Source: Quadrisphaera sp. RL12-1S (GTDB lineage: Bacteria > Actinomycetota > Actinomycetes > Actinomycetales > Quadrisphaeraceae). From it: a stretch of DNA of 64,000 nt. The stretch is from positions 124,001-188,000 of the forward strand of contig NZ_JACNME010000003.1 in NCBI RefSeq assembly GCF_014270065.1. The letters run 5' to 3'. Positions 19,883 to 23,849 of this stretch are shown here, piece by piece (positions within the stretch are counted from its first letter, which is position 1; each line of letters opens with the position of its first letter). Under the pieces are notes generated by a model. The model searched no databases, was not told where the DNA came from, and was given only the letters and a program-made list of their open reading frames with translations. The position numbers were made by a program, and so were the translations under genes.

Positions 19883-20596
19883 TCAGTTCAGGAGGTCGTT
19901 GAGGAAGCCGCCCTGCTGGTTCCCGTGGCCGCCCTCGCCGCCGAGGGGCCGGCCCTCGCTGGGCTGGACCAGCACGAAGCCGGGGCCGTGGAAGAGGTAC
20001 TGGAACGCCTCGCCGGAGCCGCCGCGCAGCAGCGAACGCACGTTCATGCTGTTCACCAGCTGCGGGCGCAGGTGGCTGGACCAGGCGACGGCCGCCTGGA
20101 TGTCCACACCGGTGGGCTGCTGGGAGCAGTCGAGCAGCACGGGCGGTCCGTCACTGGTGAGGGCGACCACGCCGTGCCCGCTCACCTCGACGTTCCACAT
20201 GCCGCCCGACAGGCGCCCGGCGCCCTGCACCCGGCGGATGTCCCACTCGAGGCTCGCGTCGAAGGCGAGGAGGTTCTTGCCGTCCACGCTGATGCCGTCA
20301 CCCTCGAGGAGAATGAGGTGCACGTGCTCGGCGGTGTTGGCGAAGAACACCTCGCCCTGCCCGGACACCCGCATCAGCGGCGTGTCCTCGCTGGTCACGA
20401 GCTTCTTGATGAACTTGGCCATCGAGCCGGAGCCTTCGTGGTCGAAGCGCACGCTGCCCTGGTAGGCCACCATCGAGCCCTTGGCGGCCAGGACGTCCTG
20501 GCTGAGCGAGACCCGCAGCATCGCGGAGTTCTGCAGCACCCAGCGCTCGCTGGTCTGCTTCTCGGCGGTGGCTGCGTCGAAGAGGTTGCTGCGCAC
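19883..20596 (-). CDS. AIM24-family (TIGR00266-like) protein
   Basis: 237 residues of AIM24 fold: MLRVSLSQDVLAAKGSMVAYQGSVRF, GEVFFANTAEHVHLILLEGDGISVDGKNLLAFDASLEWDIRRV, and GHGVVALTSDGPPVLLDC. The C-terminus is glycine-rich and ends in a predicted amphipathic stretch (GGFLNDLLN). The bacterial family is widespread, cytosolic, of unknown function and sometimes linked to envelope or stress responses. It appears monocistronic, with terminators on both sides. Confidence 0.88.
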   Translation of the reverse strand: MRSNLFDAATAEKQTSERWVLQNSAMLRVSLSQDVLAAKGSMVAYQGSVRFDHEGSGSMAKFIKKLVTSEDTPLMRVSGQGEVFFANTAEHVHLILLEGDGISVDGKNLLAFDASLEWDIRRVQGAGRLSGGMWNVEVSGHGVVALTSDGPPVLLDCSQQPTGVDIQAAVAWSSHLRPQLVNSMNVRSLLRGGSGEAFQYLFHGPGFVLVQPSEGRPLGGEGGHGNQQGGFLNDLLN

Positions 20597-20705: not shown

Positions 20706-20903
20706 TCAGGCGGCGGGAACCGGCCGCGCCAGGGCGCGCCGCGCGGCGCGCTCGACGAGCCGCTGGGCCCGCTCGACCAGCCGGGCCGCGCGGACCGCGT
20801 CCCGCTGGGACGCCTCCAGGCGGGACCAGCACGCCTGGGACCGCAGCTCCGCGCTGCGCTGGTGGTGCTGGGACAGCACCTGTTCGGGGTGGAAGGTGTG
20901 CAC
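20706..20903 (-). CDS. Small basic protein downstream of whiB7
   Basis: 65 residues from GTG 20903, supported by GAGGAG about 8 nt upstream. The sequence (HPEQVLSQHHQRSAELRSQACWSRLEASQRDAVRAARLVERAQRLVERAARRAL) is rich in Ala/Arg and is probably one or two amphipathic helices. I recognise no family. It lies 40 bp downstream of whiB7, ahead of their shared terminator, so it is likely co-transcribed with it. Confidence 0.55.
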   Translation of the reverse strand: MHTFHPEQVLSQHHQRSAELRSQACWSRLEASQRDAVRAARLVERAQRLVERAARRALARPVPAA

Positions 20904-20943: not shown

Positions 20944-21201
20944 TCAGGCGACGGCACCCACGGGCTCGGGCAGGGGGTGCTTGCGGGGACGGCCGCGGGG
21001 CCGCTTGCGGGGCACGACGACTCCGGCCAGGACCAGCTCGCCGCCCCAGACGCCCCACGGCTCGGAGCGGGCCAGGGCGCCGTCCAGGCACTCGGTGCGC
21101 AGCGGGCAGCCCGTACACAGCGCCTTGGCGGCCTCGACGTCCTGCGGGAGCTCGGCGAACCAGAGCTCCGGGTCGTTGACCCGGCAGGGCAGCGACGACA
21201 T
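20944..21201 (-). CDS. whiB7: WhiB7-type iron-sulfur transcription factor
   Basis: 85 residues. Four cysteines at 6, 29, 32 and 38 (C-x22-C-x2-C-x5-C) would bind a [4Fe-4S] cluster. The turn GVWGG at 50-54 contacts the primary sigma factor, and the C-terminal AT-hook RGRPRK at 69-74 is the mark of WhiB7 as opposed to other Wbl proteins. WhiB7 activates intrinsic resistance genes after ribosome-targeting antibiotics. GAGAGGAA precedes the ATG. Its place next to uvrD2 matches mycobacteria. A promoter with an A-tract, a 91-codon leader frame and a hairpin lie upstream (21263-21694). Confidence 0.93.
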   Translation of the reverse strand: MSSLPCRVNDPELWFAELPQDVEAAKALCTGCPLRTECLDGALARSEPWGVWGGELVLAGVVVPRKRPRGRPRKHPLPEPVGAVA

Positions 21202-21262
21202 GGGGTGTTCCTCTCGGTGTGGCGGTGCTGCGGAGCGGTCGGGGGGACCGTGAACAGCACGA

Positions 21263-21297
21263 AGGCCGCGGTCCCCTGGGTCGGGGATCCGCGGCCT
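21263..21297 (-). promoter_or_regulatory. Hairpin in whiB7 leader, candidate attenuator
   Basis: On the minus strand AGGCCGCGG-A-TCCCC pairs with GGGGA-CCGCGGCCT around a 6-nt loop: 14 bp with one bulged base. It sits between the leader frame stop (21319) and the whiB7 start (21201). The sequence after it is moderately T-rich but has no clean U-run, so terminator or anti-sequester function is uncertain. Confidence 0.55.
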
Positions 21298-21318
21298 GTC
21301 GCCGGGAGAGGAGCGGAC

Positions 21319-21594
21319 CTAGCTGGTCAGCACCTGCCGGAGGACAGGGGGGAGCCCCGAGAAGGGCGGGTTCTGGGTGAGGGCGTCTCCGATGACGACG
21401 CGCTGGCGCAGCGCGTCCCCGTGGCCGGCGCCGAGGAGCTCGCCACCGCGGGCTCCGGAGACGGAGCCGAGGGCGGGCCCGTCGGCGAAGGCGCGGGCGG
21501 ACGCGGGCACAGCGGTGCCCCCGAACCCACCGGAGGTGGGCACGCGGAGGTCGCAGGACGACACCTCGAACCGGCTGTCCATGTACTCCGTCAT
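21319..21594 (-). CDS. 91-codon leader reading frame upstream of whiB7
   Basis: Begins at ATG 21594 after a near-perfect Shine-Dalgarno sequence (GAAGGAGGTG, about 6 nt spacing), the strongest in this window. The product (MTEYMDSRFEVSSCDLRVPT...) has no family that I recognise, is glycine/alanine-rich in the middle, and ends PPVLRQVLTS. Its position inside the likely whiB7 transcript suggests a translated upstream frame that couples ribosome stalling to whiB7 expression, as reported for whiB7/wblC leaders, though here it is long. It may instead be an independent small protein. Confidence 0.65.
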   Translation of the reverse strand: MTEYMDSRFEVSSCDLRVPTSGGFGGTAVPASARAFADGPALGSVSGARGGELLGAGHGDALRQRVVIGDALTQNPPFSGLPPVLRQVLTS

Positions 21595-21655
21595 CGCTCG
21601 CACCTCCTTCGTCCTCGCACCGTCCGTTGCAGACGGGGCTGATCTCGTGGGCACG

Positions 21656-21694
21656 AGGCTAGGGGGCCCCGCGCACGACGCACAACAGGTTTTT
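21656..21694 (-). promoter_or_regulatory. Candidate WhiB7-type promoter for leader frame and whiB7
   Basis: Minus strand: AAAAA (21694-21690), CCTG, -35 TTGTGC (21685-21680), an 18-nt spacer, -10 TAGCCT (21661-21656). WhiB7-activated promoters characteristically have an A/T-rich block just upstream of the -35, as here, in an otherwise very GC-rich context. This suggests autoactivation. It lies 62 nt before the leader ATG and abuts the 3' end of uvrD2. Confidence 0.65.
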
Positions 21695-21707: not shown

Positions 21708-23849
21708 TCAGGCCCCTGCAGCGGCCTCGCGGAGCACCCCGAGCACGGCCTCGCCGTACCGCTCGAGCTTGGCCGGGCCGACACCGGGGATGCGGGCCAG
21801 CGCGGCGGTGTCCGCCGGGGTCGTCTCCGCGATCGCGACCAGCGTGGCGTCGGTGAAGACGACGTAGGCGGGGACCTTCGCCTCCGAGGCGGTGCTCGAC
21901 CGCCACCCCCGGAGCGCGTCGAAGACGGCCTCGTCGTAGGTGGGCGGGCAGCTCTCGCAGCGGCCCACCTTGCGCTCGGCGGGGGTGTTCAGGGCGAGCC
22001 CGCAGGAGCGGCAGACGCGGGCCAGCCCGGGCCCCTTCTTCGAGCGCGCGCCGCCGGCGCCACCGGCCCCGGAGCTGCGACGGCGCTCGCGCTCGGCGGG
22101 GTCGGCGGGGCGCAGGCCGTCGAGGAAGCGGGACGGCGTGCGGCTGGCCCGCCCGCCCGGCGTCCTGGCGCGCCCCCACGACACCGCGAGGTGCTCGCGC
22201 GCGCGTGTGATGCCCACGTAGAGCAACCGCCGCTCCTCCTCGACCTTGTCGGGGTCGTCCGCAGAGAAGCTGATGGGCAGCAGGCCCTCGCTCACGCCGA
22301 CCAGCCACACGGCGTCCCACTCGAGGCCCTTCGCCGCGTGGAACGAGGCGAGCGTCACCCCCTGCACGGTGGGTGCGTGCTGGGCGGCCGACCGCTCGTC
22401 CACCTCGGCGACGAGCTCGGCCACGCGGGCGCCGGGACGGGCCGCGGCGACGTCGTCCGCGAGCGCCGCGAGCGCCTGCAGCGAGGCCCAGCGCTCCCGG
22501 GCGGCGCCGGCGGCGCTGGGCGGCTCGGCGGTCCAGCCGGCGCTGGCGAGCACGTCCCGCACGGCCTCGCCGAGCGGACGGCTGCCGTCGTCGGAGCGGG
22601 CAGCGCCGCGCAGCAGGAGCACGGCCTGGCGGACCTCGGCGCGGAAGAAGAACTTCTCCCCGCCGCGCAGCACGTAGCCGACGCCCGCGTCGGACAGGGC
22701 GGCCTCGAGGGGCTCGGACTGGCCGTTGGTGCGGAACAGCACGGCGATCTCGGCGGGCGGCGTGCCGGCGTCGATGCGGCGGCGCACCGCGGCGGCCACG
22801 CCGGCCGCCTCGGCGACGTCGTCGTCGTACTCGGTGAAGGTGGGGTCGGGGCCGGGCGGTCGCTGCGCGACCAGCTCCACCCGGGCCCTCACCGCCGCGG
22901 CAGGCGCCCGGTCGAGCAGGCGGTTGGCCAGCGCCACCACCTGCGGCGTGGAGCGGTAGTCGCGCACGAGCCGGACCACCGCCGCCCCGGGGTGGCGCTG
23001 GGGGAACTCCAGCAGGTGCGCGGGGGTGGCGCCGGCGAAGGAGTAGATGGTCTGGCTGGCGTCGCCGACCACGCAGACGTCCTCCCGGCCGCCCAGCCAC
23101 AGGTCGAGCAGGCGCTGCTGCAACGGGGAGACGTCCTGGTACTCGTCCACGGTGAAGTGCCGGTACTGGCGGCGCACGCTCTCGGCCACGTCGCCGCGCT
23201 CGGCGAGGATCCCGCAGGTCAGCAGCAGCACGTCCTCGAAGTCCATGGCGCCGCGGTCGGTCTTGACGTCCTCGTAGGACTGCATGACCCGGCTCATCGC
23301 CCCCGGGTCCAGGCCCGCGGGCGGGGTGCGCCCGGCGCGGGTGACGGCGGCCGGGTAGGCCTCCGGGGTGAGGAGGGCGACCTTGGCCCACTCCACCTCG
23401 GCGGACAGGTCGCGCACGGCCGTGCGGTCCACCGACAGGCGCAGCCGGCTGGCGGCCTCGGCCACCAGGCGCGCCTTGTGCTCGACGAGCACCGGCAGCG
23501 GGCCGCCCACCGCGGTGGGCCAGAAGTACTGCAGCTGGCGCAGCGCGGCGGCGTGGAAGGTGCGGGCCTGCACCGCGGGGACGCCCAGGTCCCGCAGGCG
23601 CGAGCGCATCTCCCCCGCCGCGCGGGAGGTGAACGTCAGCGCGAGCACGCTGCGCGGGTCGTACACGCCGGCGTGCACGCCGTGGGCGATGCGGTGGGTG
23701 ATGGCCCGGGTCTTGCCGGTGCCCGCTCCGGCCAGCACGCAGACCGGTCCGCGCAGCGCGGAGGCCACCGCCCGCTGCTCGGGGTCGAGCGAGGCGAGGA
23801 CGGCGTCGGCGAGGGTCGCGTGCGTGGCCGCGAGGTGAGAGGTGGACAT
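21708..23849 (-). CDS. uvrD2: ATP-dependent DNA helicase UvrD2
   Basis: 713 residues from ATG 23849. SF1A helicase motifs: Walker A LAGAGTGKTR near residue 40, DEYQDV (motif II), GDASQTIYSFAGA (motif III), VRDYRST (IV) and TLASFHAAKGLEWDAVWLVG (V). The C-terminus has the UvrD2-specific four-cysteine zinc module (CRSCGL...CESCPP near 625) and an HRDC domain (ETTPADTAALARIPGVGPAKLERYGEAVLGVL). It unwinds DNA with 3'-5' polarity in repair. Transcription runs toward whiB7. Its start is only 22 bp from the divergent kinase-like gene. Confidence 0.94.
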   Translation of the reverse strand: MSTSHLAATHATLADAVLASLDPEQRAVASALRGPVCVLAGAGTGKTRAITHRIAHGVHAGVYDPRSVLALTFTSRAAGEMRSRLRDLGVPAVQARTFHAAALRQLQYFWPTAVGGPLPVLVEHKARLVAEAASRLRLSVDRTAVRDLSAEVEWAKVALLTPEAYPAAVTRAGRTPPAGLDPGAMSRVMQSYEDVKTDRGAMDFEDVLLLTCGILAERGDVAESVRRQYRHFTVDEYQDVSPLQQRLLDLWLGGREDVCVVGDASQTIYSFAGATPAHLLEFPQRHPGAAVVRLVRDYRSTPQVVALANRLLDRAPAAAVRARVELVAQRPPGPDPTFTEYDDDVAEAAGVAAAVRRRIDAGTPPAEIAVLFRTNGQSEPLEAALSDAGVGYVLRGGEKFFFRAEVRQAVLLLRGAARSDDGSRPLGEAVRDVLASAGWTAEPPSAAGAARERWASLQALAALADDVAAARPGARVAELVAEVDERSAAQHAPTVQGVTLASFHAAKGLEWDAVWLVGVSEGLLPISFSADDPDKVEEERRLLYVGITRAREHLAVSWGRARTPGGRASRTPSRFLDGLRPADPAERERRRSSGAGGAGGARSKKGPGLARVCRSCGLALNTPAERKVGRCESCPPTYDEAVFDALRGWRSSTASEAKVPAYVVFTDATLVAIAETTPADTAALARIPGVGPAKLERYGEAVLGVLREAAAGA

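Follow-up and report, generated by a model that had tools for sequence, protein, structure and literature searches.

How is the whiB7 gene of Quadrisphaera sp. RL12-1S switched on, and what does the 91-codon reading frame between its promoter and its start codon contribute? A sequence-only reading of the window (the whole stretch of 64,000 nucleotides that was analysed) had proposed an antibiotic-sensing attenuator in this leader. Attenuation through a translated leader frame (uORF) has been described experimentally for whiB7/wblC genes (reviewed in PMC11550727; for mycobacteria PMC13236596 and PMC4128351). We find that the locus is very probably a uORF attenuator switch of the whiB7/wblC type. 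The proposal gains support from the conservation of its parts in genus and family and from the finding of a candidate antiterminator. That the leader might be a variant of the known switch is not borne out; no variant feature was visible, and it looks like an ordinary member. All features described below lie on the minus strand.

The gene itself (20944..21201, ATG at 21201) encodes an 85 aa protein with a Whib domain (Pfam Whib, E 3e-15), a GVWGG turn and the AT-hook core RGRPRK, and was identified as an orthologue of whiB7 with relatives across Actinomycetota; the protein of Q. granulorum DSM 44889 is 99% identical to it. In one other Quadrisphaera genome (G011; leader L093, 1501-1743) whiB7 runs out of frame after GVWGG and the AT-hook lies in another frame, which reflects either a sequencing error or a disabled gene. 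The promoter elements proposed earlier were all located exactly as first described. The A-tract AAAAA (21690..21694) stands 4 bp (CCTG) before the -35 hexamer TTGTGC (21680..21685), and an 18-bp spacer separates the latter from the -10 hexamer TAGCCT (21656..21661). The A-tract, the expected contact of the WhiB7 AT-hook, is kept in 6/6 Quadrisphaera genomes and the -35 hexamer is kept within the genus. The pattern WWWW-N4-TTG-N21-TANNNT matched once in the window and never in 100 shuffles; genome-wide (4.6 Mb) it also matched once, at whiB7, with no match for the reversed control. As a search for a WhiB7 regulon, this strict pattern found nothing in the whole genome except whiB7 itself. The upstream neighbour of the promoter, ending at 21708, is a gene that we take to encode a UvrD-type helicase. 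In WblC-type promoters an AT-rich motif precedes the -35 by about 3 nt, and a spacer of 17-18 bp works best (PMC7157823); the whiB7 promoter here matches the WhiB7/WblC type in its A/T block by the -35, its spacer length and its TANNNT. Between the start site and the Shine-Dalgarno sequence of the leader frame, a small possible hairpin was noticed by eye (21618..21638) in a segment that is conserved in the genus. Such a hairpin seems to be present in most leaders and is kept within genera; the Nocardioides version often has the loop CUGACAA or CUGGCAA.

A strong Shine-Dalgarno sequence (GAAGGAGGTG, 21601..21610) precedes the leader frame (21319..21594), which extends from an ATG at 21594 over 91 codons to a UAG stop at 21321-21319, confirming the frame that the sequence-only reading had placed there. 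A 91-codon open run is by itself little proof, because at 75% GC the chance of finding one is considerable (P about 0.35); three of the five other reading frames over the region are likewise open. GC at codon positions 1/2/3 is 73/58/93% in the leader frame and 79/56/95% in whiB7, and high third-position GC is found also in the leader frames of other family members. We surveyed whiB7 leaders in 80 named genome loci, 13 family genomes and 149 order genomes, with thresholds of at least 25 codons for the uORF and 16-19 bp for the spacer; 16 loci missed by the whiB7 motif were dropped and a few genomes were present twice. The survey yielded 101 whiB7 loci, among which 98 had a WhiB7-type promoter and 96 also a leader frame with a Shine-Dalgarno sequence, these leaders sharing descent and not being independent loci. 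The spacer measures 18 bp in 90 of the 96 leaders, and the median distance from the -10 to the uORF start is 70 nt. The leader frames are 37 to 160 codons long (median 83, quartiles 66.5 and 96), with 37 codons in Rhodococcus, 41-56 in Mycobacterium, 108-129 in Actinomadura and 160 in Frankia, and at least 91 codons in 36/96 actinobacterial leaders. The frame, which had been called unusually long, is thus of ordinary length.

Across six Quadrisphaera genomes, the conserved blocks of the leader are the promoter, the start region, the Shine-Dalgarno sequence, the uORF 3' end and the terminator. Gaps inside the uORF alignment are multiples of three, and a uORF with its Shine-Dalgarno sequence lies between promoter and whiB7 in a conserved frame; it is presumably translated. 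A search against Rfam matched no family.

The predicted terminator is a hairpin formed by GGCCGCGGAUCCCC and GGGGACCGCGGCC (21264..21296), with a folding energy of -30.3 kcal/mol and z -4.75. A hairpin had been claimed between the frame and whiB7 and is indeed present, but its stem is not the perfect 14 bp first described; it has 13 bp and one bulged A. Hairpin and frame are both kept in close relatives. The RNA directly 3' of the hairpin reads UUCGUGCUGUU; the hairpin itself is strong and conserved. Efficient intrinsic termination is not guaranteed, because UUCGUGCUGUU is a poor U-tract. Since a U-tract is nearly absent behind the hairpin throughout the Quadrisphaera leaders, termination may depend on how strong the hairpin is, or on helper factors. 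The presumed termination of transcription at this predicted hairpin is the weakest link of the switch.

A second hairpin, GUGCUG...CAGCAC (21225..21260), occupies the gap between the terminator and whiB7, and its ends are nearly invariant in the genus. In genomes G004-G007 its counterpart covers the whiB7 Shine-Dalgarno sequence, with a two-sided base change between leaders L094 and L095. The weak U-tract would suit a hairpin that controls whiB7 translation by masking its Shine-Dalgarno sequence and not transcription termination; the coverage of that sequence in L090 and L094-L097 and the one apparent two-sided change, L094 versus L095, point the same way. However, accessibility of the Shine-Dalgarno sequence was not below the level obtained with shuffled upstream sequence (68 leaders, median p 0.63; 0.34 for the window), and the known members of the class work by transcription termination (PMC11550727, PMC13236596, PMC4128351). 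Control by masking is, in our judgement, very improbable at this locus. As a general second layer of control, masking of the whiB7 Shine-Dalgarno sequence gave no signal among the 68 leaders.

An attenuator of the proposed type also involves a structure that competes with the terminator. This part was missing from the first description, and we add it here as a predicted antiterminator hairpin (21281..21360) in which the last 13 codons of the uORF, its stop and the spacer pair with the terminator 5' arm. When folded up to, and without, the terminator 3' arm, the Quadrisphaera leaders form one long hairpin where CGGGGCUCC...CCUGUCC.CCGG pairs with CCGG.GACAGGCCGCGGAUCCCCG. At its apex, the hairpin GACC-AGCUA-GGUC (21316..21328) contains the UAG stop, with UA in the loop and G paired. 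Terminator and antiterminator are mutually exclusive because both use the terminator 5' arm GGCCGCGGAUCCCC, and on adding the 3' arm to the fold the terminator wins. Trimmed antiterminator segments fold with energies of -43.7 (the window), -48.2 and -59.3 kcal/mol and z-scores of -3.7, -4.2 and -5.4, and seven family leaders from three genera, differing in sequence, fall between z -3.7 and -5.4, the trimming to the structure favouring low z. The two other family genera (z -3.7 to -4.4) have the same layout in a different sequence, namely an outer stem on the terminator arm, a middle stem and an apical hairpin at or beside the UAG. Unselected 69-nt segments with the uORF stop at their centre, taken from all 96 leaders, have a median z of -2.5; around the whiB7 stops at these loci the median is -0.2 (paired p 8e-12).

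The second Quadrisphaera clade has C-G in place of a U-A pair (CCUGC/GCAGG for CCUGU/ACAGG). Its uORF also carries a 12-nt insertion, which the fold accommodates by forming a new apical hairpin. G011 keeps the inner part of the antiterminator, but another pairing takes the place of the outermost stem. Support from covariation is thin, the six genomes of the genus amounting to two clades. RNAalifold, run on a sequence-based MAFFT alignment of the family that was misaligned, did not recover the long hairpin. Proof of the antiterminator was also sought by comparing the energy of the duplex between uORF tail and terminator arm with shuffles. For the window this gave p 0.31, unexceptional for the GC content, and modest values for the relatives; across leaders 6/75 were below 0.05, with a median p of 0.31 for the tail and 0.57 for a control stretch. 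This test is weak because GC-rich DNA pairs with almost anything, and the conserved architecture is the better evidence. The antiterminator, overlapping both the uORF end and the terminator 5' arm, is a prediction backed by conserved architecture, with limited covariation.

These parts suggest how the switch would work. WhiB7 together with the housekeeping sigma factor would activate its own promoter, the AT-hook sitting on the A-tract by the -35; RNA polymerase would transcribe the leader and the 91-codon frame would be translated at once. A free-running ribosome would reach the UAG and cover the last codons together with the stop and the spacer behind it, so that the antiterminator could not close; with the antiterminator blocked, the GC-rich terminator hairpin would form and transcription would end before whiB7. 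If ribosomes stalled or did not start, owing to an antibiotic or to amino-acid shortage, the last 13 codons would be free to pair with the terminator 5' arm, resulting in read-through into whiB7 and probably into the small gene behind it. The promoter, the frame, the putative terminator and antiterminator and their conservation are read directly from the DNA; translation of the frame, termination at the hairpin and a rise of whiB7 under translation inhibitors by way of read-through are what we infer from them.

The uORF stop deserves separate mention. UAG ends 60 of the 96 leader frames, UGA 26 and UAA 10; at the same 96 loci whiB7 ends with UGA in 80 cases, UAG in 15 and UAA in one. The preference of the uORF for UAG over that of whiB7 has a Fisher p of 3e-11, a value inflated by related genomes, and all 13 family genomes (13/13) have UAG at this place. 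A frequent context is CCGGUC-UAG-N-GACCGG, that is, a stop within a short hairpin, and the preference may come partly from CUAG pairing. It is conceivable, if rather doubtful, that the stop, which across Actinomycetota would lie within the antiterminator's apical hairpin and is preferred as UAG, is itself part of the sensor. If so, the switch might sense a ribosome that arrives at a release-factor-1 stop and is slow to leave it, it might also answer termination or recycling stress, and the length of the frame might set the sensitivity to partial inhibition.

An attenuator could also depend on the peptide, if a dedicated stalling sequence in the uORF responded to one particular amino acid or drug, as in erm or trp leaders. 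Two Pro-Pro pairs lie close to the uORF end, and mycobacterial whiB7 reportedly responds to alanine starvation (Poulton et al., cited in PMC11550727). However, the peptide sequence is unconserved even inside the genus, the second Quadrisphaera clade lacks the Pro-Pro pairs and no codon run in the uORF is outstanding, which makes a dedicated stalling peptide decidedly improbable. The sequence-only reading had further suggested that the frame gives a stable protein, partnering WhiB7 in a two-protein system; its real start signals, its coding-like composition and its conservation as a frame in the genus are compatible with that. Among the four closer Quadrisphaera genomes, however, dN/dS is 0.8-2.6 for the leader frame versus 0-0.1 for whiB7, so the amino acids of the peptide, about 1 or above in dN/dS, show no purifying selection within the genus. 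The peptides of the second clade (G012 and G011) share only 24-27% identity with that of the window, whereas G012 retains 96% identity in whiB7. The peptide matched no family in Pfam or NCBIfam, AlphaFold models of five leader-peptide sequences had a mean pLDDT of 44 and were without secondary structure, and the best-conserved residues are C-terminal, where the bases also serve RNA pairing. We rejected the leader peptide as a stable protein on its dN/dS, its divergence and its structureless model, and consider a two-protein system of this kind extremely unlikely. Selection appears to preserve translation of the leader and the folding of its RNA, and not the peptide. That the open frame and the GC-rich hairpin arose by chance in DNA of 75% GC, and that whiB7 is transcribed from elsewhere, deserves virtually no credence, common as such frames are at this composition, in view of a promoter that is unique genome-wide and a whole layout that recurs in 96 leaders, 90 with the 18-bp spacer.

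The attenuator preferred here shares with the leaders of erm, vmlR, vga(A), msrD and other ARE-ABCF genes the principle that stalling on a uORF switches a terminator or a Shine-Dalgarno hairpin; in those leaders the uORFs are very short and stalling is tied to the start site or to a specific peptide, in contrast to the long frame and unconserved peptide found here. As in the trp and ilvB attenuators, ribosome position would choose between terminator and antiterminator, but the present frame contains no run of regulatory codons. The attenuator type itself is already known from Mycobacterium and Streptomyces. For the wblC leader of Streptomyces coelicolor, Lee et al. 2022 reportedly described uORF-mediated attenuation with an antiterminator, and to that extent the two leaders are alike. 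That leader also has an auto-activated promoter with an AT-rich motif by the -35 (PMC7157823). The whiB7 leaders of M. tuberculosis, M. bovis and M. marinum (PMC4128351, PMC13236596) likewise have a WhiB7 promoter, a uORF behind a Shine-Dalgarno sequence and, as predicted here, a terminator hairpin between uORF and whiB7, over roughly 350-450 nt. They differ in that the sampled mycobacterial uORFs have 41-56 codons and UAA stops, compared to 91 codons and UAG here, and in that the published terminator has a U-rich tail in place of the poor U-tract. The antibiotic-sensing whiB7 switch thus seems to be intact in an environmental actinobacterial family, and with the 96 leaders surveyed, frame length, UAG preference and the stop-codon hairpin can now be compared as candidate tuning parts. 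We know of no study of the whiB7 switch in the family of Quadrisphaera.

Behind whiB7, at a distance of 40 nt, lies a 65-codon Arg/Ala-rich ORF (20706..20903) with its own Shine-Dalgarno sequence, which is probably helical and probably co-transcribed with whiB7. It is under purifying selection, with dN/dS of 0.17-0.35 among the four closer Quadrisphaera species, and it matched no family in Pfam or NCBIfam. If the locus has any second protein, this small Arg-rich ORF is a better candidate than the leader peptide. The small ORF was noted behind whiB7 in the window and in L086-L092, and short basic ORFs of a similar kind (xxLLxxxLARxRxxE...) also trail the gene in several further actinobacterial genera, among them Nocardioides, Actinomadura and Labedaea. 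The pair formed by whiB7 and the small ORF is followed by a gene for an AIM24-family protein (19883-20596; Pfam PF01987, E 6e-35), and an AIM24-family gene lies close behind whiB7 in genomes G008 and G011 too.
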